In this document: piece after piece, positions 7,716 through 24,000 of the stretch
Layout of the letters: each line of letters begins with the position of its first letter
Position numbering within the stretch: the stretch's first letter is position 1
Source of the DNA: Gammaproteobacteria bacterium
GTDB lineage: Bacteria > Pseudomonadota > Gammaproteobacteria > BMS3Bbin11
Reading direction: 5' to 3'
Assembly: GCA_013150915.1 (NCBI GenBank)
Contig: JAADJE010000013.1
Location: 1 to 32,634 of the forward strand
Length of the DNA: 32,634 bases
The notes under the pieces: model-generated
Seen by the model: only the letters and a program-made list of their open reading frames with translations
Told to the model about the DNA's origin: nothing
The model's database searches: none
Translations under genes and position numbers: made by a program

Positions 7716-7800
7716 TTCCAAGTTCCAGGTAGAAGTCAAAACCTCACGATTCTGATTTTTGGTTTTAATCTGTAGACTTGGAACCTGGAACCTGGAACTT
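7716..7800. repeat. Heptamer inverted-repeat element A
   Basis: The left arm holds two 7-bp units, TTCCAAG and TTCCAGG (7716-7729). The right arm holds CTTGGAA, CCTGGAA and CCTGGAA (7777-7797), followed by CTT. An 11-bp stem forms between 7720-7730 and 7790-7800. The intervening 45-60 bp shows no gene. The element begins 16 nt after the osmC-like stop codon on the minus strand. It shares period and layout with elements B, C and D. Confidence 0.7.
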
Positions 7801-7816
7801 CATTTTTCCTTAATCC

Positions 7817-8236
7817 TTAATCTGCTTCTATTACTTCAAAATCATGTGTCATTTCTGCCGCTTTCGACAACATTATCGATGCTGAGCAGTATTTCTCTGC
7901 CGACAATTTCACGGCTCGCTCAATATGCTTTGTGCTCAAACCTCGCCCCGTAACGATAAAGTGTACATGAATATGGGTAAACACAGCCGGCACGGTGTCG
8001 GCACGTTTTGCTTCGATCACGGCCTTGCAGTTTGTCACATCCTGCCGGGATTTTTTCAGCATCAGCATAACGTCAATGGATGAACAGCCGCCGAGACCCA
8101 TCAGCAGTATTTCCATGGGTCTGGAACCTCTATTTTTACCCCCGACGTCGGGGCTGGCATCAATCAGAACTTTATGTCCACTGTCACCGCTGGCCTCAAA
8201 GGCCATGCCATCCAGCCAGTCTACTTCTACCCTCAT
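7817..8236 (-). CDS. OsmC/Ohr family protein
   Basis: The product has 139 residues. The two family cysteines appear in GLGGCSSIDV and in KYCSAS. In characterised OsmC/Ohr members they form the peroxidatic and resolving pair that reduces organic hydroperoxides. The first part (DASPDVGGKNRGSRPMEIL) matches the YhfA-like subgroup, for which peroxidase activity is less well established. The start codon overlaps the trpC stop as ATGA (8233-8236), so translation is probably coupled to trpC. There is no obvious functional link to tryptophan synthesis. Confidence 0.88.
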   Translation of the reverse strand: MRVEVDWLDGMAFEASGDSGHKVLIDASPDVGGKNRGSRPMEILLMGLGGCSSIDVMLMLKKSRQDVTNCKAVIEAKRADTVPAVFTHIHVHFIVTGRGLSTKHIERAVKLSAEKYCSASIMLSKAAEMTHDFEVIEAD

Positions 8237-9039
8237 AATTTCCCCTGGAACAATTCTATCAGTCTATCGCCCGGTTGCTCTGCTCGCATGAACGCCTCTC
8301 CAATAAGAAAGCCGTGTACATTGTGTGCCAGCATGGTTTCAATATCGTCACGCTGATGGATGCCGCTTTCGGTGATGACTATTTTATCATCCGGTATCGC
8401 TGAGAGCAGTTCAAGCGTGGTATCCAGGCTGGTTTCAAATGTTCGCAGGTTTCGATTATTGATACCCAGCAAGGTAATATCCAGTTTCAATGCACGTTGC
8501 AGCTCTTCTGCATCATGCACCTCTACCAGCACGGTCATATCAAGTGAATGGGCGAGACGCGTATATTCTCTCAGTTGATCATCACCCAGTGCAGCCACGA
8601 TAAGCAATATACAGTCAGCACCAATTAGACGCGATTCATAGACCTGGTAGGGATCAATGATGAATTCCTTGCGCAGCACCGGTAGCTGGCAGGCGTCTCT
8701 TGCCAGCTTAAGACAGGCATCATCCCCCTGAAAGTACTCGACATCGGTCAGTACCGACAAACAGGCCGCCCCGCCCCGCTCATAACTGCGGGCAATCTGT
8801 GCCGGATCAAAATTCTCACGCAACACGCCTTTGCTTGGAGAAGCCCTCTTGATTTCTGCAATAACCGCCGTTTTTCCTACCTCAATCCTTTGCCGTATGG
8901 CGTCAAGGAAACCCCTGGTTGGAGCACTATCCTTTAGTTTTTGCTGAATCTGTATCAATGGCAGGCGCTGCTTTCTCTCAACAATTTCCTGTGCCTTGGT
9001 ATCGAGTATCTTCAGTAGTATGTCAGCAAGCTTACTCAT
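8233..9039 (-). CDS. trpC: Indole-3-glycerol phosphate synthase
   Basis: This 268-residue TIM-barrel enzyme converts carboxyphenylamino-deoxyribulose phosphate to indole-3-glycerol phosphate. All family landmarks are present: AEIKRASPSKG, SVLTDVEYFQG, LRKEFIIDPYQVYESRLIGAD, GINNRNL and ITESGIH. It is monofunctional, with no PRA isomerase domain fused. It starts 18 nt after the trpD stop. That gap and the flanking bases are part of a short repeat also found at 7513 and 32541. trpF, trpB and trpA are not in the window. Confidence 0.97.
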   Translation of the reverse strand: MSKLADILLKILDTKAQEIVERKQRLPLIQIQQKLKDSAPTRGFLDAIRQRIEVGKTAVIAEIKRASPSKGVLRENFDPAQIARSYERGGAACLSVLTDVEYFQGDDACLKLARDACQLPVLRKEFIIDPYQVYESRLIGADCILLIVAALGDDQLREYTRLAHSLDMTVLVEVHDAEELQRALKLDITLLGINNRNLRTFETSLDTTLELLSAIPDDKIVITESGIHQRDDIETMLAHNVHGFLIGEAFMRAEQPGDRLIELFQGKL

Positions 9040-9065
9040 GAATTGATCAGAGGTTTCCTAAGCCT
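9035..9065 (-). repeat. Short dispersed repeat, copy 2, across the trpD-trpC junction
   Basis: Read on the minus strand, the bases from the end of trpD (GCTTAGGAAACCTCTGATCA) on to the trpC start (ATTCATGA) match 32542-32569 at 25 of 28 positions. The repeat therefore contains the trpD stop codon and the trpC ATG. Confidence 0.6.
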
Positions 9066-10080
9066 GGAATTGATTTGTAATACTAACCAACTGTTGCAGA
9101 CGTTCTGCCGCGGCACCGCTGGCAAGGACCTGCAGCGCCCGCTCTACGCCAGTATCCATTTCATCAGCCAGCCCGGCAGCATAGATAGCCGCGCCGGCAT
9201 TGAGGGCAACAATATCCCGTGCCGCGCTTTCAACGTTGGCCAGCACATCCCGCATCATCTGCAGACTGCTCTCGATGTCCTCTACCTTGATACTTTCTAC
9301 GGGCTGAGTAGTCATGCCAAACTGTTCCGGGGTCAGGGTGTAGGTACTTATTGCTGAGTCATGCAGCTCAGCGACATACGTCGGTGCCGAGATACTGATC
9401 TCATCCATGCCGTCTTCACCGTGTACGACCAGCACATGCCGACTACCGAGTTTTGCTAACACCTCAGCCAGTGGCTCCAGCAAGTCTTTTGCAAACACCC
9501 CCAACACCTGATTCGGTGCCCCGGCAGGATTGGTTAATGGCCCCAGCACATTAAAAATCGTTCTTACACCCATCTCCCGTCGAGGACCAATAGCATGCTT
9601 CATGGCACTGTGATGCAAGGGCGCAAACATAAAACCAACACCGATTTCATTTACACATTCCGCCACCTGTTCGGGTGTCAGATCCAGCCTGACCCCAGCC
9701 GCTTCCAGTACATCAGCACTACCACTGTTACTGGATACAGAACGATTACCGTGCTTGGCCACCCTGCCACCGGCTGCCGCCACCACTAGCGCGGAGGTTG
9801 TCGAAACATTAAAAGTCCCACTGGAATCACCGCCGGTGCCGCAGGTATCAACCAGATGATCAGGTGTAACATTCACATGTGCAGCCAGCTCACGCATCAC
9901 CTCTGCAGCCGCGGCAATCTCTTCAACTGTTTCGCCTTTGCAGCGCAGCCCAATTAAAAAGCCACCAACCTGTGCCGGTGTGGCCTCTCCGGTCATGATC
10001 AACTGCATAACATGTCGCATCTCACTCGCGGCCAAATTCTTGCCCGAGATCACGTGTTGAATGGCGGTTTGCATGTCCAT
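9058..10080 (-). CDS. trpD: Anthranilate phosphoribosyltransferase
   Basis: The product has 340 residues and transfers phosphoribose from PRPP to anthranilate. The PRPP/Mg2+ binding signature [17 protein letters not shown] and the motif [21 protein letters not shown] are intact, as is the anthranilate-side region [11 protein letters not shown]. Length is normal for the monofunctional family. A GGGG about 9 nt upstream may serve as ribosome binding site. The gene is separated from trpG by about 160 nt that consist almost entirely of heptamer element B, which is unusual inside a trp operon. Confidence 0.97.
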
Positions 10081-10101
10081 ATTTATAACCCCGTTGTTAT
10101 A

Positions 10102-10232
10102 GGTTTTACGTCACTGATGTCCCATAAACTTTCTACTGTCACTTTAATACAATCTTTACTTGCTCATCTGTTGAGGTGTCTTTGTGGGACAGCGGTGGTT
10201 TTACGTAAAGCGTAATACATAAAACGTAAAAC
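10102..10232. repeat. Heptamer inverted-repeat element B, between trpG and trpD
   Basis: The right arm is four 7-bp units in phase: GTAAAGC, GTAATAC, ATAAAAC, GTAAAAC (10205-10232). The left arm carries the inverted unit in GGTTTTACGT (10102-10111). Nested inside is a second inverted repeat, TGTCCCATAAA (10118-10128) with TTTGTGGGACA (10181-10191), 10 of 11 bases complementary. Both stems are separated by 6 nt on each side. The element starts 6 nt after the trpG stop codon on the minus strand. Confidence 0.7.
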
Positions 10233-10238
10233 ATCGCT

Positions 10239-10805
10239 TTATCTCCTTTCCAGAAAATTCGCCAAAAGTTCATGCCCCTGATGCGTCAATATCGACTCCG
10301 GGTGAAACTGTACGCCCTCTACATCCAGTGTTGTGTGCCGTACGCCCATGATCTCATCATCATCGGTCCATGCAGTCACTTCCAGACACTCGGGTAATGT
10401 TTCCCGCTCGATTACCAGTGAATGGTAGCGGGTCGCCTGCAGGGGATTTTCCAGTCCCATAAAGATACCACCATCCCTGTGATGGATCATCGAAGTCTTG
10501 CCGTGCATCAGGGTTTTTGCACGAATGATGTTCCCGCCAAAGGCCTGGCCGATACTCTGATGGCCGAGACAGACGCCCAGTATTGGCACCCGTCCACTGA
10601 AGCGTTTGATCACTTCGACCGACACACCGGCTTCATTCGGTGTACAGGGACCGGGCGAGATGACAATACGTTCAGGCTGCATTGTCTCTATCTCATCGAG
10701 GCTGATCCTGTCATTTCGATGGATATGGACATCGGCACCTAGCTCGCCAAAGTACTGCACCAGGTTATAGGTAAAGGAGTCATAATTATCGATCATTAAT
10801 AACAT
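10239..10805 (-). CDS. trpG: Anthranilate synthase glutaminase subunit
   Basis: This 188-residue class I glutamine amidotransferase supplies ammonia to TrpE. The catalytic Cys lies in [11 protein letters not shown] (residue 79) and the His/Glu pair in VQFHPES (168 and 170). The oxyanion segment [10 protein letters not shown] is present. The start at 10805 is preferred over the in-frame ATG two codons earlier (10811), because an AAGGAGG (10813-10819) is only 1 nt from the earlier ATG but 7 nt from this one. trpG follows trpE by 12 nt. Sequence alone does not exclude sharing with a pabB product. Confidence 0.95.
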
Positions 10806-10817
10806 ATCCATGCCTCC

Positions 10818-12305
10818 TTAACTCAGTTGCCTGAAACCGCCTGCAGCCATTGCTACGGCACGGAAGGTTGCCCTGCCCTTGTTCAAGGTCTCTTCCCATT
10901 CCATTTCGGGCTGGGAGTCCGCAACGATGCCGGCACCCACCTGTATATTCAGTATGCCATCCTTGATTACCGAGGTGCGAATGGCAATGGCGGTATCCAT
11001 ATTTCCATTCCAGCCGAGATAGCCCACCGCACCAGAATAGACACCACGTTTAACCGGTTCCAGTTCATCGATGATTTCCATCGCCCTGATTTTCGGTGCG
11101 CCGCTGACGGTGCCTGCGGGAAATGTTGCTTTTAGTACATCGATGGCATCAAACTCCTGACGAATATCGCAGACCACATTGGAGACGATATGCATAACGT
11201 GCGAATACCTCTCTACAACCATGCGCTCAGTCAATTCCACACTGCCAATTTCGGCGATACGACCGAGGTCGTTACGCCCCAGGTCTACCAGCATAAGGTG
11301 TTCTGCCAGTTCTTTGGGGTCAGCCATTAAATCCTGTTCCAGCTGTAAATCCTCTGCATCAGTTTCGCCTCGTGGCCGAGTGCCTGCTATAGGACGTACA
11401 GTTGCTTTGCCTTCATCGACCTGCACCAGAATCTCCGGTGACGAGCCAACCACCTGAAAGTCGCCCAGATTCATATAATACATATACGGCGAGGGGTTCA
11501 AGGTCCGCAGAGCGCGGTACAGGTCGAGTGGTTCACCCTCATAAGCGATATTCATACGCTGCGATAACACCACCTGCATGATATCACCTGCTCGAATATA
11601 CTCTCGCGCCCGCTCAACCGCCTGCATATAAGCCTCGCGGCTAAAATCAGAATGGAAGTCACCCTCGTTTATCTCACAGGCTGATATTTTGCCCTGATGA
11701 GACAGGGGCTGGTCAAGCTGGCCAACAAGTTCATCAATACGTTGCCGTCCCGACTCCCATGCATCACTCTGGCGCGGGTCAACATTAATGACAATAAACA
11801 AACGACCCTTGAGTTTGTCGAAAATAAGTATCTCATCAGAAACCATCAATAATATGTCGGGTGTCTGCAATGGGTCTGGATGCCTGTTGTCTCCCAGGCC
11901 GGGTTCAATAAAGCGAATGGTATCGTAGCTAAAATAACCCACCAGACCACCGGTAAAACGGGGCAGGCCTTCGATATCTGGAGCACTGAAACGCTGTTGA
12001 TATTCTCGCACAACATCAAGAGGATCATCCGCTGTCAGCGACTCTATAATCTCGCCATCTTTGAGTATTTCTACCCTGCGCCCGAAAGCTCGCAACTGTC
12101 GTCTCGCAGACAGACCGATAATGGAATAGCGGCTGGCCTTCTCACTGCCGGAGACTGATTCAAACAGATAGGAATACTCACCGCCGGCAAGCTTGATGTA
12201 AGTGCTTAATGGAGTATCGAGATCCGCCAATACTTCGCGCACAAGCGGGATGCGCGTGTAGCCGCTAGCGGCATAGGCATCAAATTCAGATTTTTTTATA
12301 GCCAT
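10818..12305 (-). CDS. trpE: Anthranilate synthase component I
   Basis: The product has 495 residues and makes anthranilate from chorismate with TrpG. The N-terminal Trp-feedback region is visible (SYLFESVSG, related to the LLES motif). The catalytic domain contains GGLVGYFSYD, TVRPIAGTRPRG, EHLMLVDLGRNDLGR and FPAGTVSGAPKIRAMEII. Length and order are standard. The ATG at 12305 has only a distant AGG about 14 nt upstream, so translation may depend on the structured leader. Upstream lies a short Trp-rich leader peptide, pointing to control by charged tRNA-Trp. Confidence 0.97.
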   Translation of the reverse strand: MAIKKSEFDAYAASGYTRIPLVREVLADLDTPLSTYIKLAGGEYSYLFESVSGSEKASRYSIIGLSARRQLRAFGRRVEILKDGEIIESLTADDPLDVVREYQQRFSAPDIEGLPRFTGGLVGYFSYDTIRFIEPGLGDNRHPDPLQTPDILLMVSDEILIFDKLKGRLFIVINVDPRQSDAWESGRQRIDELVGQLDQPLSHQGKISACEINEGDFHSDFSREAYMQAVERAREYIRAGDIMQVVLSQRMNIAYEGEPLDLYRALRTLNPSPYMYYMNLGDFQVVGSSPEILVQVDEGKATVRPIAGTRPRGETDAEDLQLEQDLMADPKELAEHLMLVDLGRNDLGRIAEIGSVELTERMVVERYSHVMHIVSNVVCDIRQEFDAIDVLKATFPAGTVSGAPKIRAMEIIDELEPVKRGVYSGAVGYLGWNGNMDTAIAIRTSVIKDGILNIQVGAGIVADSQPEMEWEETLNKGRATFRAVAMAAGGFRQLS

Positions 12306-12364
12306 GGGAAAACATTACCTAAAAACAAATTAACAGGATAAAACGAATAAAAACGCATAGCGCC
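12306..12364 (-). promoter_or_regulatory. Putative trp attenuator region before trpE
   Basis: Immediately after the leader-peptide stop codon, the minus strand can form a small stem (AGGCGC-TAT-GCGTTT, with two G-T pairs) running into a T-rich stretch. A 7-bp pairing, AACAGGA inside the leader reading frame (minus strand, 12387-12393) with TCCTGTT (12332-12338), encloses the Trp codons and the small stem. These could be mutually exclusive structures. The terminator stem is weak, so the exact mechanism is uncertain. Confidence 0.4.
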
Positions 12365-12412
12365 TCACCATCGCCAGATCCATGCCTCCTGTTTTTTGAT
12401 CATGCTTTCCAT
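12365..12412 (-). CDS. trpL: trp operon leader peptide (three Trp codons)
   Basis: The minus strand between gph and trpE encodes MESMIKKQEAWIWRW followed by TGA, with TGG codons at 12380-12382, 12374-12376 and 12368-12370. Three Trp in the last five residues of a 15-residue peptide, placed directly before trpE, is the hallmark of ribosome-mediated trp attenuation. The peptide starts 16 nt after the gph stop codon. A second ATG at 12403, with GGAA upstream, would give a 12-residue version. It lies in the same transcript direction as gph, so attenuation could separate expression of the rpe-gph part from trpE-G-D-C. Confidence 0.75.
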   Translation of the reverse strand: MESMIKKQEAWIWRW

Positions 12413-12428
12413 TTGTAAGGATATCTCT

Positions 12429-13112
12429 TCAATTCAGCAAATTGATATGCTGATCCAGTATGTCCAGTGAATCTATCACACCCTGTGTCTGCAGGGTAGT
12501 AAGATCGACACCCTGATTGTAACCATAATTAACACAGATAACTGGCATACCGGCTGCGTTGGCTGCCTTGACATCATTGGCCGAGTCGCCGATCAGCACT
12601 CCCTGCTGCGGGGTAATGCCAAATTGCTCACAGGCATACGTCAGCGGCAATGGATCCGGTTTCTTACGTGGCAACGAATCACCGGAGACCACCAGTTCAA
12701 AATAACCATCGAGTTTCAGGTCGGCCAGCAGGGGCAGGGTAAAGACTGCAGCCTTATTGGTGACACAGGCCAGCCTGAAACCCGCCGATTTAAGTTTATC
12801 AAGGCCGGCTACAACCCCGTCATAGGGTCGGCTTTTGGCTGAGACGTTTTCACCATAGGCTTCAAGAAACAGTGCATAGCCCCTGTCATAGTCATCACTA
12901 TCCGGCTCAGCGTCCATGGAATTCGTCAGGGCGCGTTTGACAAGGCGGCCGACGCCATTGCCAATCCAGCCAGACACCTTGTCCAGCGGCCATATATCAC
13001 GTCCCATACGCTCGAGCATGATGTTAACGCTGTCAGCAAGATCCGGTGCGGTATTGATCAGGGTTCCATCAAGGTCAATCATGACCATTTTGACGGGTAT
13101 TTTATTTGTCAT
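12429..13112 (-). CDS. gph: Phosphoglycolate phosphatase
   Basis: This 227-residue HAD-superfamily hydrolase removes phosphate from 2-phosphoglycolate. Motif I is IDLDGTLINTAPDLADS, motif II is VTNKA, and motif III/IV is GDSANDVKAANAAGMP. The order rpe-gph-trpE is common in gammaproteobacteria. There is no clear Shine-Dalgarno sequence before the ATG at 13112, and an internal ATG at 13088 (MVMIDLDGTL) is possible. It is separated from rpe by a pair of REP-like sequences. Confidence 0.93.
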   Translation of the reverse strand: MTNKIPVKMVMIDLDGTLINTAPDLADSVNIMLERMGRDIWPLDKVSGWIGNGVGRLVKRALTNSMDAEPDSDDYDRGYALFLEAYGENVSAKSRPYDGVVAGLDKLKSAGFRLACVTNKAAVFTLPLLADLKLDGYFELVVSGDSLPRKKPDPLPLTYACEQFGITPQQGVLIGDSANDVKAANAAGMPVICVNYGYNQGVDLTTLQTQGVIDSLDILDQHINLLN

Positions 13113-13165
13113 AACAATATTTACCAGTGAAAATCAGCTCAAGGTAAAAGCCGCCTTATGTGTTC

Positions 13166-13244
13166 GTAGGAGCGTCGTCTCGACGCGATTTTTTTTATTG
13201 ATTTATCAGCTCTAACCACAATCGCGCCGAGACGACGCTCCTAC
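13166..13244. repeat. BIME-like pair of inverted REP sequences
   Basis: Two 24-bp arms (13166-13189 and 13221-13244) are inverted copies with one mismatch. Each begins or ends with GTAGGAGCG/CGCTCCTAC, and each alone forms a small hairpin (GCGTCG-TCT-CGACGC on the left). The GTAG head and internal stem-loop are typical of REP elements mobilised by RAYT (TnpA-REP) transposases. The pair lies between rpe and gph, and could protect or terminate the rpe transcript. Confidence 0.8.
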
Positions 13245-13272
13245 AGCATGTCATTGGCAATTGAACAAAGTA

Positions 13273-13965
13273 CTAGTCGACTTTCGCAAGCTCTGCGCGC
13301 ATCGCCGCGACTACCGTCTCATAGTGGTGTGGATCCGCTTCATTGGCCGCACCAAAAATAGCGGAGCCCGCGACAAACATATCGGCGCCAGCCTCGGCAA
13401 TTTCACGGATATTATCAATTTTGACTCCACCATCAACTTCCAGGCGAATGTCCCTGCCGGAAGCATTAATCAGTTTGCGACACTGTTTAAGTTTGGTCAG
13501 TGTGGCGTCAATAAAACTCTGCCCACCAAAACCGGGGTTTACAGACATCAGTAGAATCATGTCAATCTTATCCATGACATATTCAAGGGCATCCAATGAC
13601 GTGGCCGGGTTAAATACCAGGCCGGCCTTACAGCCTTCCCCTTTTATCAGCTGCAGGCTACGATCGATATGCTCGGAAGCCTCCGGATGGAAGGTGATGT
13701 AGGTGGCACCTGCTGCAGCGAAATCAGGAATAATACGATCAACAGGCTTTACCATTAAATGCACATCAATATCCGCCGTTATGCCGTGCTTACGCAGTGC
13801 ATCACAGACTAATGGGCCAATGGTCAGGTTGGGGACATAGTGGTTATCCATAACATCGAAATGCACCACATCGGCACCGGATGCCAATACATTGTCGACC
13901 TCTTCACCGAGTCTGGCGAAATCTGCAGACAGGATTGAAGGTGAGATAAGGAAATCTGTAGCCAT
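13273..13965 (-). CDS. rpe: Ribulose-phosphate 3-epimerase
   Basis: This 230-residue TIM-barrel enzyme interconverts ribulose-5-phosphate and xylulose-5-phosphate in the pentose phosphate and Calvin cycles. Landmarks are [63 protein letters not shown] and [12 protein letters not shown] lies about 8 nt before the ATG. It is the first gene of the leftward rpe-gph-trp cluster. Confidence 0.96.
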
Positions 13966-14079
13966 CGTAATGCTCCCTGGTATTTTAGTGGATACTGAGT
14001 TTCAGTAAGAAAAATAGAGGCGCGACTTTACCCTATTTGGAGTGGTTTTTCAGTATTTCGTGTGAATCCAGGGGTAAAA

Positions 14080-15148
14080 TTAACCATCCACGAGAAGATT
14101 GCGCAAATCAATAATGGCCGCATTGGCCCGCGAGATATACGACGCCATTACCAGCGAATGGTTGGCGACAAAGCCAAAGCCGTTGCCATTCAGAATGATC
14201 GGACTCCAGATGGGGTCCTGGGTAGATTCCAGTTCACGGATAATCTGGCGCAGGCTGACAACGGCATTTTTCTTGCGTAATACCGGCTCAAAATCGATCT
14301 CAACCGCTTTCAGAAAATGCAGCAGTGCCCATGCAGCACCCCGTGCCTCGAAGAAATTGTCATCAAGCTTGCTCCAGGGTGTTTTAACTTCCAGATTTTC
14401 AGGGGCCGGCGTTGATTGGGTCGCCGCTGCATCACCGGCCATATCTGTATTCACACGCGATTGACCGACACTGGCCGATAGGCTTTGAGACAGACCACCG
14501 AGCCGCTTTTCGACCGTTCTTAACCAGTTTACAAGATTGTCTGCACGGACATAAAACTGCGCATTCGTCACCTTGGTATCGGTCAGCCGGGAAAGGTAGG
14601 ACTCCAACGCATCTATCCCCTTACGGTAAGCGCCTTCAGCTGACGGGAACAGCCAGGATTCATTATTGATGTTAAATTGTGGCTCAGCCACCATCAAATC
14701 CTTGTCTTCCATTGACTGCGATTGTGAACGGCTCATGTCATTACGTAGCGCACGGGCCAAATCCCGTACCTGCACTAAAACACCAAACTCCCAGCTCGGC
14801 ATATTATCCAGAAATACTGAAGGTGGCAGGACATCATTGCTAAGAAAACCCGGGCTTGTCCAGCAGTGTTTTGCTAACAGAAATCAGCGCGGCTGTTGTA
14901 ACGCTACCGGGTACAAGCTTTGCACCCTGATCAACAAGGCCCACCAGCTGCCGCGCATTGTCCTGCACATCAAACTGGCCAGGGGTGCGACTCCAGTATA
15001 TGGCTAGCAGCAGCATCAGAATGATAAACAATAATGATGCCATACCAATTGACCAACGCAGGCCTTTTTCCTTCCATGTCGTGGGTTTTAGTACACCGCC
15101 GACTGCGCCGGTAACAATTTTTGCTTTTTGCTGGATATTGCTAACCAT
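14080..15148 (-). pseudogene. DUF2333 family inner-membrane protein, frameshifted
   Basis: The N-terminal piece (15148 to the stop at 14840) has a cytosolic head, one membrane segment (about residues 33-51) and continues to LLDKPGF. The remainder is one frame away, resuming as LSNDVLPPSVFLDNMPSWEF and running to 14080. Together they give about 355 residues, the usual DUF2333 size, with no missing segment. The shift lies in the G3/T4 run at about 14845-14853: one extra T, or two missing G if the family motif is DKPGGFLS. This may be a recent mutation or an error in a homopolymer. The family has no established function. Confidence 0.85.
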
Positions 15149-15282
15149 GTTTGCGTACCCTTATTTTCATAATGGACATCTTAACATGCTGTCCAAATGT
15201 TTTATCTGACTGTTCCTGGGCTCGTCCTTATTTCCTCAGCACCTAATGTGCGTTTCTTTATTTTTGTGCTCGCACGCAAAAA

Positions 15283-15966
15283 CTACCGCTTCATCACCCG
15301 TATCCAGCGCCAGAAATTTAACAGACCTGCCAGTGAGGCCGCCACATAGGTAAATGCCGCTGCACGCAGGATTTTTCTCGCCGGCCCGTATTGCTCGGGC
15401 AAGAGATAGCCCGATTCAAGCATGGGCAGGGCCTTGTGAAAACTGGCATCAATCTCTACAGGCAGGGTAATCAACTGTACAAGCAGGGCAATACCCATAA
15501 CAAGAAACGCCGCTAATAGTGTTATCAGTCCAACAACAGGGGCACGTGAAATAATAGATAACAGTGGCACCAGAAACAATAACAATGAACCCACCTTTTG
15601 GGCCCCCACAGCCAGTGTTGCCAAGCGAGACCGCCACTGGAACAGGTTCTCATTCCGGGCATCCTGAATAGCATGCCCAACTTCATGCGCTGCAATCGTA
15701 ATGGCTGTCAGTGTCTGCCCATAAAAACGGTCCTCACCCAGACGTACTGACTTTGCAATCGGGTCGTAGTGATCACCTTCAGACGTAATGTCTACTTTCA
15801 CTGACTGCAGTTCAAACCGGTCAAGCAGATGCCGTGCCAGCTCCCCGCCAGTACCGGTGAAATTCTGCTCCGGCTTACGGTTATAACGATTTAAAACAGC
15901 ACTGACCCAGTATTGGGGGCCAATAATCAATACCACTAGAACGATAAGGATAATTGCTGCATACAT
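15283..15966 (-). CDS. YugP-type membrane zinc metallopeptidase
   Basis: The product has 227 residues. The zinc-binding HEVGH lies at residues 94-98 in the pattern AAHEVGHAIQDA. A downstream Glu in LPVEIDAS (about 171) is the likely third ligand. There is one N-terminal membrane helix, and two or three further hydrophobic segments lie at about 125-170 and 205-220. This matches the YugP/neutral zinc metallopeptidase 2 family. The substrate is unknown. It is the first gene of the leftward block that contains the broken DUF2333 gene. Confidence 0.88.
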   Translation of the reverse strand: MYAAIILIVLVVLIIGPQYWVSAVLNRYNRKPEQNFTGTGGELARHLLDRFELQSVKVDITSEGDHYDPIAKSVRLGEDRFYGQTLTAITIAAHEVGHAIQDARNENLFQWRSRLATLAVGAQKVGSLLLFLVPLLSIISRAPVVGLITLLAAFLVMGIALLVQLITLPVEIDASFHKALPMLESGYLLPEQYGPARKILRAAAFTYVAASLAGLLNFWRWIRVMKR

Positions 15967-16081: not shown

Positions 16082-16137
16082 ACATGTATTCGACCTGTGT
16101 GGTGGGTAATTTATCCTTATGTTTCAGATAAGTGGCG

Positions 16138-16167: not shown

Positions 16168-16265
16168 ATACCCCTGTTGCAAGAATGTAACAAATATGCC
16201 GGGAAAATATCTGCTATGGGAATCCCTGCAAACAACTTTAACTTTAATTATTTGGAGATTTTCAA

Positions 16266-16766
16266 ATGAAACTCGTACAAATTGTATCAATTGCTGCTCT
16301 GATGAGCATGTCAGCAGCGTCTTCAGCCTTCTGGGGCAACGGTTATGACAACGGTAACGGTTATGGCTCCGGTAACGGTTCCGGCTATGGCAACGGATAT
16401 GGCTATGGTGATGGTTATGGCAATGGCTACGGCAGTGGCGACACGCGTGGCCGAGGCCGTGGTTACGGTAGAGGCAACATGGACAGTGACGTTAATGGTG
16501 AATTCAACATGAGCTTCAAGGGCAAAGGTCGTGGACGCGGTGCGGGACGTGGCTATGGTTCGGGCTACGGCTCAGGTTATGGCGACGGTTATGGCCGTGG
16601 TTACAATAACTATCGTGGTAATTACCGTGGCAACTACTACGGTGGCAATCGTTACGGCTCTGGTGGATATGGCCCATACGGTTATGCGCCATATGGCTAT
16701 GGCGCTCCTATGATGCAAGGCGCTCCTATGATGCAAGCCCCTGCTGCGCCTGCGGCTAAAAAATAA
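16266..16766 (+). CDS. Secreted Gly/Tyr-rich protein, probable sulfur globule protein
   Basis: The product has 166 residues. A signal peptide (MKLVQIVSIAALMSMSAASSA) is followed by repeats of GYG, NGYG and GDGYG. A less repetitive central segment follows (DSDVNGEFNMSFKGKGRGRG), then more GY repeats and a Pro/Ala/Met tail with GAPMMQ repeated. Composition, size and the D-x-NGEF-x-MSF-x-G-x-GRGRG segment resemble the structural proteins that coat periplasmic sulfur globules in Allochromatium and relatives. The family call is by recall of this pattern, not alignment. GGAG precedes the ATG and a strong terminator follows, so it is probably monocistronic. A different Gly-rich envelope protein cannot be excluded. 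Confidence 0.65.
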   Translation: MKLVQIVSIAALMSMSAASSAFWGNGYDNGNGYGSGNGSGYGNGYGYGDGYGNGYGSGDTRGRGRGYGRGNMDSDVNGEFNMSFKGKGRGRGAGRGYGSGYGSGYGDGYGRGYNNYRGNYRGNYYGGNRYGSGGYGPYGYAPYGYGAPMMQGAPMMQAPAAPAAKK

Positions 16767-16787
16767 GAATTTTTAATTCTTGTTTTT

Positions 16788-16822
16788 AAAAAGCCCGCGC
16801 GGGGAACTGCACGGGCTTTTTT
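16788..16822 (+). terminator. Rho-independent terminator
   Basis: AAAAAGCCCG (16788-16797) pairs with CGGGCTTTTT (16812-16821), followed by further T. It lies 21 nt after the stop codon of the sulfur-globule-like gene. The A/T flanks make it partly bidirectional. Confidence 0.85.
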
Positions 16823-16833
16823 GTATTTAAAAT

Positions 16834-16909
16834 CAGTGTTCGGTTTTCAGTGTTCAGTAAAATCAAAAGCTTTAAAAGCCATAAACTGAACACTGAAAAC
16901 TGAACACTG
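16834..16909. repeat. Heptamer inverted-repeat element C
   Basis: The 25-bp arms 16834-16858 and 16885-16909 are inverted copies with one mismatch, separated by 26 bp. Each arm is a run of 7-bp units (CAGTGTT, CGGTTTT, CAGTGTT, CAGT on the left). The element ends 3 nt from the stop codon of the minus-strand outer-membrane protein gene at 16913. It shares its heptamer with element D. Confidence 0.85.
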
Positions 16910-16912
16910 CCC

Positions 16913-18097
16913 TTAAAAATAATACCCAAGCTCAATCTGTACAAAATCATCCCGAGCAAATGACTTAAGAGACTGATCCAGTTTATCTACCACAAATTTA
17001 CTGGCCTGCATCGATAGCTTCCAGCTGTCACCAATTCGTCGGCTGGCCTCCAGGCTGATCAAATAACTATCATTGAACCGATCCTTAATTATTCCCAGTA
17101 ACGCATCACTACTTTGTTCATCATTCAAGGTCATTCTAAGACCGACCATGATGTCATCTTCAAATGGCGTGGTCGCCAGTTCACCACGTGAATCATAGAG
17201 ATATTCCATCACCAGGCCCATATCGGCGCTACCAACAACACCATAAAATGTGTATTCGAAGCCACCTGTGGCACGCCGATATTTTGCATAGTTGCCATCC
17301 AGATTAATGGCCTCCAGCTTCCACAACCAGCTGCCCCGGGTCAACTGTATGTCCAGCCCTGCCTGGTCGATAATCTGGTAAAACGGTGCCAGCACGATCT
17401 CACCATTGTACCGGGCAGGCGACAGCAGAGGCTCTCTGCTGGTGCCATGAAACAAGGATAACCCAATATCCATATCACCGAGGGTATGCGACCACCTGGC
17501 TGCCAGGTCGACATGCTTGTCCTGCTGTGATGATTCATAACGGGTCAGATTTTTTTCAACACGGGGAATAATGCGAGGACGACCTTTGACACCGGCAAAT
17601 GTCCGCTCACGAAAACCGGGCAGTACAAATAAGTCGACGGTACCCCAGTCGCGAATAAGCACAAGCCTGGCCATAGGCTGACCGAGTTTTTCCTCCTGAT
17701 TGAAGTCTTCAACCAGGTCTGTCTGATTAATTATATCGACAATATGCCGAGCCTCGGTAACACCCCAGTAAACTTTACTTATCCCAAGCGTCCATTCATA
17801 GTCCCTGGCAATGTATGACCATGACAGCTCTCTGATATCGGCATGAGTACGTTCGTCATCCCTCTGATCCAGACGAACAAATGGAATAAAACTAATGTTC
17901 TGCTTACCCCCCTCCCATTCGTAATACATTTCAGGTTGCGCCACAATTGAAGCATTATTCCCGTGTTGCCGGGGATCAGTCGGATCCTTAAGAAACAGCC
18001 TTTCCTGAATCGTTACATTACCCCGCCAACTGACAGACTGTGCTGGCGATGACATCACCAGCAGAGACCCGATCAGCACTAGAAGGGATTTTTTCAC
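16913..18097 (-). CDS. Outer-membrane beta-barrel protein of an RND/LolA-like cassette
   Basis: The product has 394 residues. A signal peptide (MKKSLLVLIGSLLVMSSPAQS) is followed by alternating amphipathic strands. The C-terminus FVQIELGYYF ends in the terminal Phe expected for BAM-assembled barrels. The protein resembles DUF1302-type porin-like proteins, but I could not assign it to a named family. The GTG start at 18095-18097 overlaps the stop of the preceding gene as TAGTG, so translation is coupled. With the periplasmic and inner-membrane partners upstream, it probably forms the outer-membrane part of one transport system. Confidence 0.75.
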   Translation of the reverse strand: MKKSLLVLIGSLLVMSSPAQSVSWRGNVTIQERLFLKDPTDPRQHGNNASIVAQPEMYYEWEGGKQNISFIPFVRLDQRDDERTHADIRELSWSYIARDYEWTLGISKVYWGVTEARHIVDIINQTDLVEDFNQEEKLGQPMARLVLIRDWGTVDLFVLPGFRERTFAGVKGRPRIIPRVEKNLTRYESSQQDKHVDLAARWSHTLGDMDIGLSLFHGTSREPLLSPARYNGEIVLAPFYQIIDQAGLDIQLTRGSWLWKLEAINLDGNYAKYRRATGGFEYTFYGVVGSADMGLVMEYLYDSRGELATTPFEDDIMVGLRMTLNDEQSSDALLGIIKDRFNDSYLISLEASRRIGDSWKLSMQASKFVVDKLDQSLKSFARDDFVQIELGYYF

Positions 18098-18879
18098 TAA
18101 CGCGCACGTTTTAGTGAATTGCGGTCAAAATCGCGATCGGTATAACCATTCTTGAAACTATAATCACTAAAGATCAGCAAGGTACTTTTTCCATTCTGAT
18201 GGTTGACCATCTGCATACGATCAGCTCGCCAGTATTTGTCCAGGTACTGTTTGTAACCGGTCAGCGTCAGAGTTTTCAGCAGTGAATTCTTGCGGTCATA
18301 GAACTCTACCTTTAGCGGGCGATAGATCACTTTGTCACCCCAGACGATCTGTCTTGTGTAGCCCGAATATTTATCCACAGGTACCCGCTCAATTACATAA
18401 ACATCTTTGCCGTCCAGTTTTTCATCTCTTAACCATTTATAGGTATATTTACCCACTTCCTGAGAAGACATATCCTCGAAGGCAAACTCACTGCCCATAA
18501 ACGGTCCAGACTTGTTTTTAGATGCAATACGTTTGACTCGTTTCAGCGCCGGCAGGTATAGCCACTGGTCGTCCGGTTTATTGACATGGGTAAAGCTTAA
18601 AAAGGCGGTCCCCTTGATGTCAGCCGGTGTATCAAAAATAGACATCGATTTATCACCATCACCTATAACCTCCAACTCACGACCGTGAATTTGGCGGCGA
18701 CTCTCCTGCCCCTGTTTGTTTCGCAGTATCATCACCAGAGACTGCTTCTGGTCTCCCCAGCCGGTATCCAGTTCATCTGCTTTTTGTGCGATCTTAAGTC
18801 CTTTTTCTTCTGCTGTAATGGCCCAGGCCGGGGTGATTGACAAGCTAAGAAGCAACAGTAGCAGGGCTATTTTTTTCAT
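18097..18879 (-). CDS. LolA-like outer-membrane lipoprotein-sorting protein
   Basis: The product has 260 residues. The ATG at 18879 has GAGGA 8 nt upstream and gives a clean signal peptide (MKKIALLLLLLSLSITPAWA). An upstream TTG at 18894 is therefore not used here. The mature part fits the LolA-like superfamily of half-open beta barrels that carry lipids or lipoproteins: DTPADIKGTAFLSF, QWLYLPALKRVKRI and FMGSEFAFEDM are recurring landmarks of this exporter-associated group. The start lies 35 nt inside the RND gene, and the stop overlaps the outer-membrane gene. It is distinct from housekeeping LolA. The cargo is unknown. Confidence 0.83.
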   Translation of the reverse strand: MKKIALLLLLLSLSITPAWAITAEEKGLKIAQKADELDTGWGDQKQSLVMILRNKQGQESRRQIHGRELEVIGDGDKSMSIFDTPADIKGTAFLSFTHVNKPDDQWLYLPALKRVKRIASKNKSGPFMGSEFAFEDMSSQEVGKYTYKWLRDEKLDGKDVYVIERVPVDKYSGYTRQIVWGDKVIYRPLKVEFYDRKNSLLKTLTLTGYKQYLDKYWRADRMQMVNHQNGKSTLLIFSDYSFKNGYTDRDFDRNSLKRAR

Positions 18880-21172
18880 CAGATTTTTCCTCAATTTTCA
18901 TAAGCAGGGTTGGTAATAACAGAAAATCAGCGAGTAAGGCCAACGAAATAACCAGCGCCGTCAGGGTACCCATACCGGAGTTAAGTTTGAAAGAAGACAT
19001 GGCAAGAATCAGGAAGCCAGCGATAAGAACCACTGAAGTCACCAGCAGGGCTTGCCCGACACTAATGAAGGCGTACCGTACTGCTTGCTCAGGATCGTAG
19101 CCCTTCTCCGAACGGGCACGTTTATATTTAGTCATATAGTGTACGGTGTCATCAACCACGATACCCAGGGTCATACTGGTAACGATTGATAAACCCAGAC
19201 CAACTTCACCTACCAACAGGCCCCATATGCCAAACCCCATAGCCGCCGGCACCAGATTCGGCACCATCGATATCAGCCCAAGCTTGAACGAGCGCAGTGC
19301 CAGAATCATGATGAATGAGATAAGAACAAGTGCAACCGTTGTCCCCATCAGCATACTAATAATATTGCGTTTTCCTATATGTGAGAACATCAATGATGGC
19401 CCACTGGCCGCTGCCGCCTTTATGTAGTGGGCATTCTCTGCCAGCCACCGATCGGATCGCTTCTCAAGTTCCAGCATTTCATTGGTTGACAAGGTTCTGA
19501 ATGTTACGACCATGCGCGTTGCTGATTTATCGACATTGATCTGATTATTAAGATCCAACCCATACGGCAATGACATTTCATACATCAACAAATACTGCGC
19601 AGCGAGATTTCGTCCATCCGGTAATCGATACATTTTGTCATTATCACCATGCATATTCTTGTTCAGTCGCTTCATAATATCAGTAAGGACATTGACGTGC
19701 TTCGTTTCAGGCTGCTGCCTGAACCAGTTGGCAAAGTCTTCCAGTTCCTGTAAAAACTCTGGCTGGCTGATCCCACCCGGCTCTCCCGACTCAACGGAAA
19801 ACTCCATGATGTACATACCGGTAAGGTTGTCTACCGTGAAGTCTGTTGCAACACGAAAGGGAATGGATTCATCAAAATACTCAAGAAATACATCATTCAA
19901 CTCATTGCGTGGTATAAAGGCAATGAGTATCACCACCAACGCAAGCATGGAAGGTAAAATTTTACGGCGATACCTGACGACAAAGTCGCCAAACCAGGTC
20001 ATCAAACGATCACCTTTCCCATGCTGTTTGCGCACCCTGACCGGAAGCAGGCTCATTACCGCAGGCAGGAATGTGACAGCCAGTAGAAATGATATCAGTA
20101 CACCGATAGCAACAAAATTACCCAGATGGTTAAAGGGTGGCACATCTGAAAAATTCATTGCAAGAAAACCAATCGCCGTCGTTATACTGGTCAGAAAAAC
20201 AGGCTGTAGATTAATTCTCAGGCTTTCGATCAACGCGTGCTTCTTCTCCATTCCCTCACGCATCTGATGATAGAAGGATACCAGCACATGAACTGAGTTA
20301 GCGATTGCCACTGTCAATATAACTATCGGGGCCGATGCACTCGGGGGTGTAATCGGGTAACCAAGATACCCCCCCGCACCCATCGCCGAAACGATGGACA
20401 TAGCAATTACAAACATAGTCATCACCGTCCCGGCAAACCCTCTGATCATCAGAAGAAGCACCAGCATCATGACGACAAAACTTAATGGCAGTAGTGACGT
20501 CATATCAGATATTGATGCCTCTGAGAAGGCGTTATTCATCATGATCATACCCGTCAAATAAATTTTTATCGACGGATATTTTGCTTCTATTTCCGACTTA
20601 ATCTTACGTGCATAGGCTACGGCTTCGGGTGTTTCTTTTGATTCGTTGATACCCGGCAATTGAATCGTTACATTGACGGCCGTGACACGGCCATCATCCG
20701 ATATCAAACGCCGAACTAATAAGGGTTCGGCCAGCGCTATCCTTCTTATTCGTCGCAATTCGTCTTCATCCAGCGACTCAACATCCTCAACCAGATCCCT
20801 GACCATCAGGTTGTCACCTTCTGCCTCTGTATGCTGAAAATTGCTTACTGAATCAACACGTGAAGAATAGGGTACCTGCCAGGCCTTTTTCGTCAATTCA
20901 GATACGGCTGTCAATACTTCCTTGCTAAAGACTTCACCTTCCTTCGGTGCCAACACGAACATAATGTTATCGTTTTTGGAGTAGGTATTTTCCAGCGCCT
21001 CAAAAGCCATGCGCTGTGGGTTATCCTCACTGAAAAAGACCCGGTAATTCGTCGTCATCGACAGGTTTTTTACACCACTCGCCAGAAGCCCGACAACAAG
21101 AAAAGTAATGACAATTATCAACCAGCGGAACCGTAAGACCCAATTAGCAAAATTTCTTTCAAAATTTTTCAT
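18845..21172 (-). CDS. RND superfamily (MMPL-type) exporter
   Basis: The product has 775 residues. The start at 21172 is chosen because AAGG lies 8 nt upstream and the product opens MKNFERNFANWVLRFRW followed by the first membrane helix. Earlier in-frame starts add only a charged stretch. Two repeats each show one N-terminal helix, a large periplasmic loop and a five-helix bundle (for example MTSLLPLSFVVMMLVLLLMI and VPAAMGFGIWGLLVGEVGLG). The motif VDDTVHYMTKYKR is typical of the family. MMPL/HpnN-like exporters move lipids or hydrophobic compounds. Overlap with the LolA-like gene suggests lipid or lipoprotein transfer across the periplasm. Confidence 0.88.
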   Translation of the reverse strand: MKNFERNFANWVLRFRWLIIVITFLVVGLLASGVKNLSMTTNYRVFFSEDNPQRMAFEALENTYSKNDNIMFVLAPKEGEVFSKEVLTAVSELTKKAWQVPYSSRVDSVSNFQHTEAEGDNLMVRDLVEDVESLDEDELRRIRRIALAEPLLVRRLISDDGRVTAVNVTIQLPGINESKETPEAVAYARKIKSEIEAKYPSIKIYLTGMIMMNNAFSEASISDMTSLLPLSFVVMMLVLLLMIRGFAGTVMTMFVIAMSIVSAMGAGGYLGYPITPPSASAPIVILTVAIANSVHVLVSFYHQMREGMEKKHALIESLRINLQPVFLTSITTAIGFLAMNFSDVPPFNHLGNFVAIGVLISFLLAVTFLPAVMSLLPVRVRKQHGKGDRLMTWFGDFVVRYRRKILPSMLALVVILIAFIPRNELNDVFLEYFDESIPFRVATDFTVDNLTGMYIMEFSVESGEPGGISQPEFLQELEDFANWFRQQPETKHVNVLTDIMKRLNKNMHGDNDKMYRLPDGRNLAAQYLLMYEMSLPYGLDLNNQINVDKSATRMVVTFRTLSTNEMLELEKRSDRWLAENAHYIKAAAASGPSLMFSHIGKRNIISMLMGTTVALVLISFIMILALRSFKLGLISMVPNLVPAAMGFGIWGLLVGEVGLGLSIVTSMTLGIVVDDTVHYMTKYKRARSEKGYDPEQAVRYAFISVGQALLVTSVVLIAGFLILAMSSFKLNSGMGTLTALVISLALLADFLLLPTLLMKIEEKSDEKNSPATVAS

Positions 21173-21231
21173 CATCCTATCCTTTATTTTTATTCCCTTA
21201 TCTATTTTTATTTCTTTAACCGCGATCAACC

Positions 21232-21249
21232 GCAGAGGATGCAGAGGAT
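21232..21249. repeat. Tandem 9-bp duplication
   Basis: GCAGAGGAT is repeated twice without a gap, 60-77 nt upstream of the RND gene start. No inverted partner is seen. It may be a degenerate relative of the short tandem repeat class found elsewhere in the window, but this is weak. Confidence 0.4.
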
Positions 21250-21361
21250 CGCATCGATTCTTTTGTTGTGTTAAACGTTATACGCCCCTAACAGAAGGAA
21301 AATAGTCATACGCTATGAATAAGCCGTATCATTTCAATACCGGGAATCCCCCACAGGCCTT

Positions 21362-22666
21362 TCAATCTCTGTCTTCAAGGGTCACATAATCTCTTTGGGC
21401 CTTGCCGACAAATAATTGACGAGGTCGCCCGATGCGTTGCTCCGGGTCATCCATCATTTCCATCCACTGCGCAATCCAGCCGACGGTACGCGCCATGGCG
21501 AAAACCACTGTGAACATATTTATCGGTATGCCCATAGCACGCATGATGATGCCGGAGTAAAAATCAACATTCGGGTAGAGTTTTCGCTCCTTAAAATAAT
21601 CATCCTCCAGTGCAATTCGTTCAAGCTCCAATGCTATCTCAAACAACGGGTCGTCGTGGTCACCCATATCTTCGAGTAAATCGTGACAGGCGCCTCTAAT
21701 CAGCATGGCACGCGGATCGAAGTTTTTATAAATCCGATGCCCAAAGCCCATTAAGCGATAGTCATCATCCTTGTCCTTTGCACGCTCAACAAATTTGGAA
21801 ATATTTTTTGCTTCACCTATCTCTTCAAGTGTCCTGATTACCGCCTCATTGGCACCGCCGTGTGACGGCCCCCACAGTGATGCTATGCCGGCACAGACAC
21901 TGGCAAAAGGATTTGCACCGGATGAACTGGCCAGCCTGACCGAAGAGGTGCTGGCATTCTGCTCATGATCAGCATGCAGGATTAAAATAAGATTCAATGC
22001 TCGCGCATGAACTGGATTAACGACGTACTCCTCTGTCGGCAGTGCAAACATCATGTGTAGAAAGTTTTCAGAATAATCCAGGTTATTCTTTGGGAAATTG
22101 AACGGTAATCCCATCGAGTATTTGTAACTGTCAGCCGCGAGGGTCGGCATTTTAGCAATGAGTCTATGGGCAGAAATTTCACGATGGCGTGGATTCGAGA
22201 CATCGGTCGAGTCGTGATAGAAGGAAGACATGGCACCGACAGAACCCAGCATAAATGCCATTGGGTGGGCATCATGGCGAAAACCGCTGTAGAAACGGCG
22301 CATGCCTTCATGCACCATGGTATGACGGGTGATGTTGGCACTGAAGTTATGGAGCTGTATCTTAGAAGGAAGTTCACCATTTAACAGCAAATAGCAGACT
22401 TCAATATAACTACTCTTTTCTGCGAGCTGTTCAATCGGATAACCGCGATACAGCAAAACACCTTTATCGCCATCAATGTAGGTAATGTAACTGCTGCAGG
22501 TGGCGGTCGAGACAAAACCCGGATCATAGGTGAACATACCCAGGCTGGAATACATCTTGCGTATATCAAAAACATCCGGCCCATGCGTCCCTGTTTTAAC
22601 AGGCAAATCAACCTTGTTACCTGTTCGATTATCAGTAATTGTTACTGTTTGTTTCTTTTCTGCCAT
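21362..22666 (-). CDS. gltA: Citrate synthase
   Basis: This 434-residue enzyme condenses oxaloacetate and acetyl-CoA at the entry of the TCA cycle. The catalytic triad is visible as His in [10 protein letters not shown] (about 269), His in [14 protein letters not shown] (about 310) and Asp in NVDFYSG (about 368). The N-terminal domain of the hexameric, NADH-regulated type of Gram-negatives appears to be present. The ATG at 22666 is chosen because AGGGGG lies about 9 nt upstream and the alternative GTG at 22675 would sit on top of it. It follows nadA by 110 nt and probably has its own promoter. Confidence 0.97.
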
Positions 22667-22776
22667 CCGACGCACCCCCTCTCAAAACTAAAATCCTTTC
22701 CGCTAATGGAACCAAAAATGGTGTAAACAGTTTCACCCGATCGAAAATTATATCAGAATAAAGGCCACCAATAGGG

Positions 22777-23880
22777 TCATGCATCACCGCGTATCTTCAT
22801 ATCCACGTCACGTTGATTTGCAAAATCAAGCATACGCTGTATAGGTATAACTGCTTTTTCGACGATTTTACCGTCTATTTCTATAGATTTACCGTTATTT
22901 AGAAGAAGTTCACGTAACTTATGCAGGGTATTGATAGCCATCCATGGACAATGTCCACAGGAAACACAGCTGGCCCCTTCCCCTGCGGTGGGGGCCTCGA
23001 AAAGTTCCTTATCACTGGCAACAGAACGCATTTTGTAAAAGATGCCACGGTCCGTGGCGACGATAAAGCGTTTTGCATCACTCTGCTGCACTGCATTGAT
23101 CAACATAGTCGTTGAACCGACCACATCGGCCAATTTTATGATTGAACGCGGGGCTTCAGGATGTACCAACACCCTGGCGTCCGGATACCGTTTCATCATC
23201 TGCTGCAACTCCGTACTGCGAAACTCGTCATGCACCACACAGACGCCCCCCCACAACAACATATCTGCACCCGTCTGATGCTGAATATAATCACCCAGAT
23301 GGCGATCCGGCGCCCAGATAATTTTCTCTCCCTGATCACGCAGATGACGCACGATATCCAGCGCAATGCCGGATGTAACAACCCAGTCAGATCGTGCCTT
23401 GATTTCAGCACTGGTATTTGCATACACCACTACCTTACGGTCAGGGTATGTATCACAGAACTGGCTAAACCGGTCAATCGGACAGGACAGATCAAGTGAG
23501 CATGTGGCCTCATCATCAACCATCAGTACCCGCTTTTCCGGGTTAAGTATCTTGGCTGTTTCGCCCATGAAGCGCACACCGGCAACGATCAGTGTTTGTG
23601 CCGGGTGATCATGACCAAAACGAGCCATCTCTAACGAGTCGGCTACATGACCACCCGTTTTTAGCGCCAGCTCCTGCAGATTATCATCGACATAATAATG
23701 TGCCACCAGGACTGCGTCCTGCTGGGTCAGCAACCTGGAAATTTCAGCCATCAGGTCTGCCTTTTCATTCTCACTGATGGGTAGCGGACAGGAAATCTGT
23801 GCCGCCATTTCTTCTATGCGATGCAGCTCTTCAGCACTGATAGTCGTATTAATACTTTCGGATGTTGGATGAGATGACAT
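22777..23880 (-). CDS. nadA: Quinolinate synthase A
   Basis: The 367-residue [4Fe-4S] enzyme joins iminoaspartate and dihydroxyacetone phosphate to form quinolinate for NAD synthesis. Cluster cysteines are in [10 protein letters not shown] (about 127), [10 protein letters not shown] (about 214) and [10 protein letters not shown] (about 311). The core [21 protein letters not shown] is typical. The start codon is odd: six perfect 7-bp repeats end 2 nt before the ATG, leaving no Shine-Dalgarno sequence. The first 30 or so residues ([15 protein letters not shown]...) are not conserved, so initiation further in, for example at the Met of EEMAAQIS (23808), is possible. No nadB or nadC is near. Confidence 0.95.
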
Positions 23881-23882
23881 GG

Positions 23883-23993
23883 GTTCAGTGTTCAGTGTTC
23901 AGTGTTCAGTGTTCAGTGTTCAGTAGTATATGTGAAACTTTGTGGGAGGCGCGCCCCCATTCCCCTTAAAACTGAACACTGAACACCGAAAAC
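23883..23993. repeat. Heptamer inverted-repeat element D
   Basis: The left arm is GTTCAGT repeated six times without error (23883-23924). The right arm carries the inverted units ACTGAAC, ACTGAAC, ACCGAAA, ACT (23971-23994). The centre holds a near-perfect palindrome around GGCGCGCC (about 23943-23959). The element fills the gap between the DUF2788 stop codon (24001) and the nadA ATG (23880), so nadA mRNA made from upstream would start with a long hairpin. Confidence 0.9.
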
Positions 23994-24000
23994 TACGCCG

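Follow-up and report, generated by a model that had tools for sequence, protein, structure and literature searches.

Heptamer-armed intergenic hairpins behind stop codons: constant period and changing unit in gammaproteobacterial sister species

Cyanobacterial heptanucleotide repeats include the STRR family of Calothrix and the GGGGA(T/C)T repeats of Nostoc. In many bacteria, heptanucleotides reportedly outnumber all other classes of long simple repeats (Mrazek 2007 survey, as related in part of PMC4679880), and an inverted, stop-linked form has been described for the GGGAATC / GGGANTN heptamers of Xanthomonas (excerpts of Rehm et al. 2015, PMC4692102). Here, we describe a family of intergenic stem-loops with heptameric arms, represented by four elements in a stretch of 32,634 nucleotides (the window; contig JAADJE010000013.1, G000:C90:1-32634) of the assembly GCA_013150915.1 from an uncultured gammaproteobacterium (G000; 2.65 Mb, 122 contigs, 97.7% complete). 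The initial annotation of the window had stated that no inverted, stop-linked heptamer form was described, which is wrong, as the GGGAATC arrays in those excerpts of PMC4692102 have it. The period of seven, the intergenic place, the nearness to stop codons, the mirrored arms including their variant order, the retention at orthologous gaps, and the in-register change of unit in three gap pairs are established. As an explanation we favor, at roughly even confidence, that heptamer-armed intergenic stem-loops are tolerated behind genes and made uniform where they stand through slippage and template switching at the hairpin.

The four elements, and a sequence nested in one of them, are as follows.

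Element 1, 7716-7800: arms TTCCAAGTTCCAGGT and ACCTGGAACCTGGAA, complementary at 14 of 15 positions, around a centre of 52 bp; 16 nt after the stop codon of an osmC-like gene.
Element 2, 10102-10232: irregular GTTTTAC / GTAAAAC arms in the trpG-trpD gap; 6 nt after the trpG stop codon.
Sequence nested within the centre of element 2, 10110-10200: 44 bp of it are found at two other sites of the G000 sample.
Element 3, 16834-16909: CAGTGTTCGGTTTTCAGTGTTCAGT and an inverted copy, around a centre of 26 bp; 3 nt after a minus-strand stop codon.
Element 4, 23883-23994: six GTTCAGT units and, inverted, an ACTGAAC arm; the neighbouring genes are nadA (start side) and a DUF2788 gene (stop side).

All four elements were confirmed in the sequence. 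The arms of element 3 are 25 nt long with 24 complementary positions, and element 4 has six perfect GTTCAGT units and a right arm complementary at 22 of 24 positions, around a centre that by eye holds a REP-like (repetitive extragenic palindromic) GC-rich palindrome. The strict 7-bp tandem units of the initial annotation do not apply to element 2, which is irregular, carries the nested insertion, has a single GTTTTAC on the left and irregular heptads on the right (73% matches in Tandem Repeats Finder), and lies below the threshold of the repeat detectors used for the counts. The two further genomic copies of its nested sequence are 93% and 89% identical over the 44 bp, and the sequence is missing from the trpG-trpD gap of the same-genus genome G004 and of G005. 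All four elements fold into hairpins in RNA folding, with z-scores of -5.0, -2.9, -8.5, and -5.1 for elements 1 to 4 against 200 shuffles and a range of -2.9 to -11.6 across six example elements. The distances of 16, 6, 3, and 7 nt to the stop codons hold with the earlier end points and the called open reading frames (ORFs), that of element 4 being 7 nt with an end at 23993 and 6 nt if the arm runs to 23994. Pfam assigns the stop-side ORFs to OsmC, to class-I glutamine amidotransferase (which we take to be TrpG), and to DUF2788; for the ORF ahead of element 3, annotated as outer-membrane, Pfam gave nothing at E 0.001. By eye, the stretch from this upstream gene to element 3 holds a further, separate hairpin that is GC-rich and has a T-run; window positions 16266-16766 encode a repetitive protein weakly matching a sulphur globule protein (PF17228, E 1.2e-6), and a GC-rich hairpin with a T-run comes after it. 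The Rfam 15 covariance models gave no match in the window at gathering score.

The in-depth comparison covers two species, with samples of 1.00 Mb from G000 and 0.96 Mb from a relative of the same genus, G002, whose TrpG is 97% identical. The assemblies are drafts, the units were compared partly by eye, and genes were called by a simple home-made codon-score caller that misses small genes (coding fractions 0.79 and 0.76). Among intergenic arrays with a score of at least 11, period 7 is found 42 times in G000 and 72 times in G002, while periods 4-6 and 8-13 yield 0-4; period 14 (29 and 48 arrays) is read as a harmonic of 7. A separate count in G000 gave 39 arrays at period 7 vs 0-3 at periods 5, 6, and 8-11. 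Part of the G000 sample was picked because its contigs carry GTTCAGT dimers, but 308 kb that were not picked in this way, in which at least 2.85 exact copies were required, agree (seven arrays at period 7, two each at periods 5 and 6, none at periods 8-13). Nearly all period-7 arrays are intergenic (42/46 in G000, 72/74 in G002). The preference extends to intergenic inverted repeats. Of those with arms periodic to 60% or more at the best-fitting period, 11 of 13 (G000) and 21 of 21 (G002) have 7 as that period; when no such limit is set, 7 still comes up more often than any other value in each species (19/69 and 36/153). Inverted repeats with arms of 14 or more number 59 in 695 kb vs four in one Markov-resampled copy.

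Placement behind minus-strand stop codons had been noted in the window. The link to stop codons holds genome-wide, whereas the strand restriction does not, as stop codons of either strand serve. Among elements in gaps with a stop-codon side, the element begins within 20 nt of a stop codon in 22 of 27 cases in G000 and 44 of 59 in G002, where 2000 runs of uniform placement in the same gaps gave means of 9.9 (maximum 17) and 24.0 (maximum 33), respectively. Start codons within 20 nt are not enriched (6 vs 6.9 expected in G000, 8 vs 13.2 in G002). Elements outside any called gap (10 of 41 in G000, 2 of 63 in G002) had been dropped beforehand, as had a further four and two, respectively, whose gaps have no stop side. 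In G002, 2 of 61 elements lie in divergent gaps, although 99 of 541 gaps are divergent; the depletion is clear only there, because G000 is hardly depleted (4 of 31 elements, 85 of 537 gaps). Together with the array counts, the stop enrichment bears out a genome-wide family of constant period and changing unit behind stop codons, in which copies are not rare and period 7 is preferred.

For 189 of 619 G000 gaps, the orthologous gap is present in the G002 sample. In the unfiltered count, both species have arrays at 9 of the 189 pairs (1.4 expected), one of which is doubtful, its G002 gap measuring 7 bp, and drops out when both gaps must reach at least 40 bp. The 148 pairs passing this filter have arrays in 11 G000 and 20 G002 gaps and in both at 8 (1.5 expected, P 3.5e-6), and with gaps of at least 100 bp, arrays are shared at 8 of 102 pairs (1.7 expected, P 7.6e-6); the table counts the G000 trpG-trpD gap as empty, element 2 being below the detector. 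By eye, the units are the same or nearly so in three of the eight shared pairs (C111:7948, C80:70399, C40:5922) and different in five (C21:69067, C35:2559, C40:13393, C98:9820, C98:13792), and further pairs with different units are those at window 7716, window 10102, and C111:10956.

Three of these eight unit-differing pairs were aligned base by base (C35:2559, C98:9820, C111:10956). In all three, left flank and array meet at an identical point, the 7-nt register is preserved, and the differences recur at fixed unit positions along the array; the second arm behaves likewise in the two pairs that have two arms. The changes are AGTTTAA/AGTTGAA vs AGTTCCA in two gaps and AAAACTG vs TAAATCG before the presumed polA start; a clean right boundary is seen in C111:10956 only. 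The initial proposal of a process acting on 7-nt periodic DNA is thereby supported in spirit. A literature search covering open-licence papers did not find a description of orthologous gaps in which the unit turns over in register, and orthologous intergenic repeats can be overlooked when sequence alone is compared. The array at the presumed polA start is direct, with about eight AAAACTG units at G000 C98:10277-10333 and about seven TAAATCG units at G002 C33:62638-62685; the gene after it is presumably polA, judged from the N-terminus of its protein.

The gaps orthologous to the window elements differ further. The G002 counterpart of the element 1 gap carries GACGAAA/GATAAAA heptads, and that of element 4 an octamer CGCAGAG palindrome. 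In the trpG-trpD gap, G002 has GTTCCAA/GATCCAA arms, G001 and G006 have TTCCAAG-type units, G004 and G005 have GTTTTAC-type units like G000, and G007 has no element. G001 and G006 also have arrays in which the two unit types stand next to each other (AAGTTGAAAGTTCCAAG, AAGTTGAAAGTTCCAGG).

Mirroring of the arms includes variant units. The G002 trpG-trpD element has a GTTCCAA-GATCCAA-GTTCCAA-GATCCAA arm with an exact inverted copy (30/30), and two other mixed-unit arm pairs of G002 match at 28/28 and 24/24 positions. Three or more heptads with mixed units are present in each arm of 13 elements, and in 11 of these the true unit order was the best of all orders (3.8 expected), a test that favors mirroring somewhat since the arms were found by complementarity. 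An arm fits its own partner as well as it fits the best foreign arm from that genome (0.924 vs 0.928), because loci share unit families.

This sharing takes the form of species dialects. The commonest unit by sampled arrays is AACACTG in G000 (10/46) and AACTTGG in G002 (17/74), and the unit spectra overlap by 0.20. Whole-genome counts were made as exact three-unit matches at overlapping positions, in which a long array is counted several times; AACTTGG x3 occurs 0 times in G000 and 55 times in G002 (1 of 185 genomes of the class), AAAGTTG x3 23 times in G000 and 0 times in G002 (likewise 1 of 185), and AACACTG x3 17, 12, and 29 times in G000, G002, and G090 (3 of 185). One reversed-repeat control of these counts was void, the reversed repeat being its own rotation, and one matched three times in G029. 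Arrays per Mb amount to 46 in G000, 77 in G002, 94 in G005 (128 kb only), and 6 in G001 (170 kb only); density thus varies strongly within the genus, because the G001 samples (L180, L181, L252-L262), which belong to the same genus, have one period-7 array in 170 kb. Named trpD loci of gammaproteobacteria (80 loci, 597 kb) contain 24 period-7 arrays, again with other units, and at L149, L164, and L170 such arrays lie shortly before trpD.

Other palindromes share these gaps. In several gaps, one species has a GTAGGAGC REP-like or an octamer CGCAGAG palindrome where the other has a heptamer element; the GTAGGAGC palindromes are probably REPs, judged by eye. A RAYT transposase partner and a conserved tetranucleotide beside the stem are typical of REP elements. 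REP-like palindromes of the form GTAGGAGCG...CGCTCCTAC lie at window positions 13166-13244 and at G000 C85:9420 and C111:949, where the sister species several times has a heptamer element. A family of octamer-arm palindromes (CGCAAAGG, CGCAGAGG, CACAGAGG) is separate from the heptamers and occupies gaps that hold heptamer elements in sister species; it was seen at trpD loci L111, L126, L129, L131, L135, L143, L151, L153, and L170 and at G000 C111 ~15599-15792 and G002 C33 ~35609, and some heptamer arms flank an octamer palindrome (G002 C6:51400). Period-8 arrays were considered as members of the heptamer family and rejected, 15 of 17 in the 80 named trpD loci being such separate palindromes (CGCAAAGG, CGCAGAGG). 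At G000 C98:9820-10401 and C98:13792-14148, a stretch with ends around GTTAACGGGACAGYAGTG lies beside heptamer arrays and is absent from the orthologous G002 gaps; it is perhaps a small mobile element.

An S23p gene (PF05635, 23S_rRNA_IVP) stands between inverted AACACTG arms at G000 C111:7948-8504 and G002 C33:76278-76858. Between the two species, the right flank of this element, mostly insert, is 98% identical and the left flank 89%. Heptameric repeats upstream of the ORF of the Coxiella S23p intervening sequence are mentioned in part of PMC4990558. PF05635 matches occur in 39 of 185 class members, and all three AACACTG x3 genomes carry the gene, two of them by shared descent, which is only a lead. 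The gene was dropped as a driver of the arrays: none was detected in G005 (91% complete, 12 arrays in 128 kb), and G000 and G002 have one each.

Under the explanation that we favor, slippage during replication, or else unequal exchange, would keep the units within an arm uniform. The two arms would be matched by quasi-palindrome correction, in which template switching across the hairpin lets one of them rewrite its partner. A mutation in a single unit could then take over a whole element while the flanks change slowly. Template switching has been argued to be both maker and keeper of RNA hairpins (in the part of PMC8794818 consulted here). The persistence behind stop codons may reflect that a hairpin is tolerated there or that it is useful at the mRNA 3' end or an operon junction, a benefit also ascribed to REP elements. 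That many loci of one species share one unit suggests exchange between loci as well.

Several points weigh against this explanation, beyond the bias of the unit-order test. Two clear arms are found in 17 of 41 elements in G000 and 30 of 63 in G002, so over half are without a clear second arm. The five unaligned differing pairs are compatible with replacement, and those at window positions 7716 and 10102 look unrelated in unit. The dominant units differ species-wide, where independent loci should instead drift apart, and slippage with in-place template switching therefore does not explain genome-wide dominant units. G000 shares its trpG-trpD unit type with G004 and G005 although its TrpG is nearest to that of G002, which calls for either parallel change or exchange. 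In 36 inverted-repeat elements, the mismatches counted on the presumed transcript strand (G-U 23, A-C 14, other 25) could be a sign of RNA-level constraint, although G-U 23 vs A-C 14 is not decisive. Finally, the preference for 7 is left unaccounted for. Since units are shared among the loci of one species, there is room for inter-locus exchange, mobility, or a trans-acting agent.

Mobility, the mobile cassette of the initial annotation, is, in our estimate, improbable though not far-fetched. The elements would be non-autonomous (foldback-like or like miniature inverted-repeat transposable elements), with lineage-specific active families re-entering the same permissive gaps behind stop codons, and, at the same low likelihood, their arms would be internally repetitive terminal inverted repeats. 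One unit at many unlinked loci of a species, with other dominant units in the sister species, would fit, as would palindromes nested within each other (by eye), the element that encloses the PF05635 (S23p) gene, and the recurrence of AGTAAAATCAA beside the arm in four AACACTG-type elements. Arrays were detected only in G002 at 13 gaps, and at five of these G000 has a palindrome of the REP-like or octamer kind. On the other hand, a search of 1.96 Mb (the G000 and G002 samples) matched the centres of elements 1, 3, and 4 at no second place, and the three aligned orthologous arrays keep the register and at least one boundary while their units change. ATCAAAA over all G000 elements is no commoner than its reversed control; AAAATCAAAA, tried as a conserved core after the first arm, was dropped as universal (ATCAAAA sites vs reversed control 7/8 in G000, 7/5 in G002).

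We give a similarly small chance to selection for mRNA hairpins, acting as 3'-end protectors, attenuators, or operon-junction structures, for which any palindrome would serve and the sequence would be free to turn over. The elements hug stop codons, their folding scores are low in all six examples, divergent gaps are under-used in G002, and any of three palindrome classes (ad hoc motifs) is present in both species at 19 of 189 gap pairs (3.8 expected). The excess of G-U over A-C mismatches points the same way, with the reservation made above. However, the position may reflect no more than a tolerance of repeats at 3' ends, G000 shows hardly any depletion of divergent gaps, and with one array in 170 kb of G001 the elements look dispensable within the genus.

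Somewhat less probable still is a lineage-specific trans-acting process that overwrites heptad arrays chromosome-wide towards a species dialect. Each gap would then inherit its 7-nt frame and its mirrored arms, and part of the unit would be overwritten along the array and in both arms, which we likewise rate as doubtful; the agent might perhaps be a nucleic-acid-binding protein or copying from a master array. That neutral polymerase-slippage microsatellites of unit 7 suffice, with inverted pairs arising by chance or inversion, is very unlikely: heptanucleotides were the most abundant long simple repeat class in most genomes surveyed in 2007 (Mrazek, via part of PMC4679880), but mirrored unit order, joint arm change in aligned orthologous gaps, and stop-codon linkage speak against slippage only. 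Intrinsic (bidirectional) terminators, the terminator-like cassettes of the initial annotation, would match the place behind stop codons and the stable stems but can practically be set aside, as T-runs follow the stem in 7 of 35 cases on the transcript strand vs 9 of 35 on the opposite strand, elements sit within the trpG-trpD junction, and element 3 is preceded by a separate T-run hairpin (by eye).

Sister species in which array, place, and register are kept but the unit is changed offer a natural experiment on how repeats are made, homogenized, and mirrored, which also bears on whether the cell needs a hairpin behind the stop codon.

Among known systems, the GGGAATC type of Xanthomonas shares with the present family the convergent inverted pairs near stop codons. 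In the excerpts of PMC4692102, the Xanthomonas repeats form one G-rich unit family read as a quadruplex former, whereas here each genome has many, mostly A-rich units; the commonest of them, AACACTG, AAAGTTG, AACTTGG, and AAACCGT, are without GGG on either strand, although the minor AAAGGGG units have it. Unit turnover between sister species is seen here, and those excerpts yielded no orthologous-gap comparison for the Xanthomonas repeats. The TAACTGA repeats of marine Beggiatoaceae (MacGregor 2015, PMC4679880, in part) are likewise heptameric, mostly intergenic, and gammaproteobacterial, but they are built from one unit, lie mostly upstream of start codons, are direct (169 sets, one inverted), and have related heptamers that are rarely repeated. 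TAACTGA is not among the commonest units here (up to 30 per genome listed), and start codons are not enriched; the array before the presumed polA start resembles the TAACTGA layout. Cyanobacterial heptamers are likewise short tandem units between genes, with only few inverted pairs in Nostoc according to excerpts of PMC4692102. Foldback or Galileo-type elements likewise have inverted arms of tandem repeats, but these are Drosophila transposons (PMC3573991, in part). REPs and bacterial interspersed mosaic elements (BIMEs) are likewise extragenic hairpins; they differ by their GC-rich fixed sequence and have no tandem heptamer arms.

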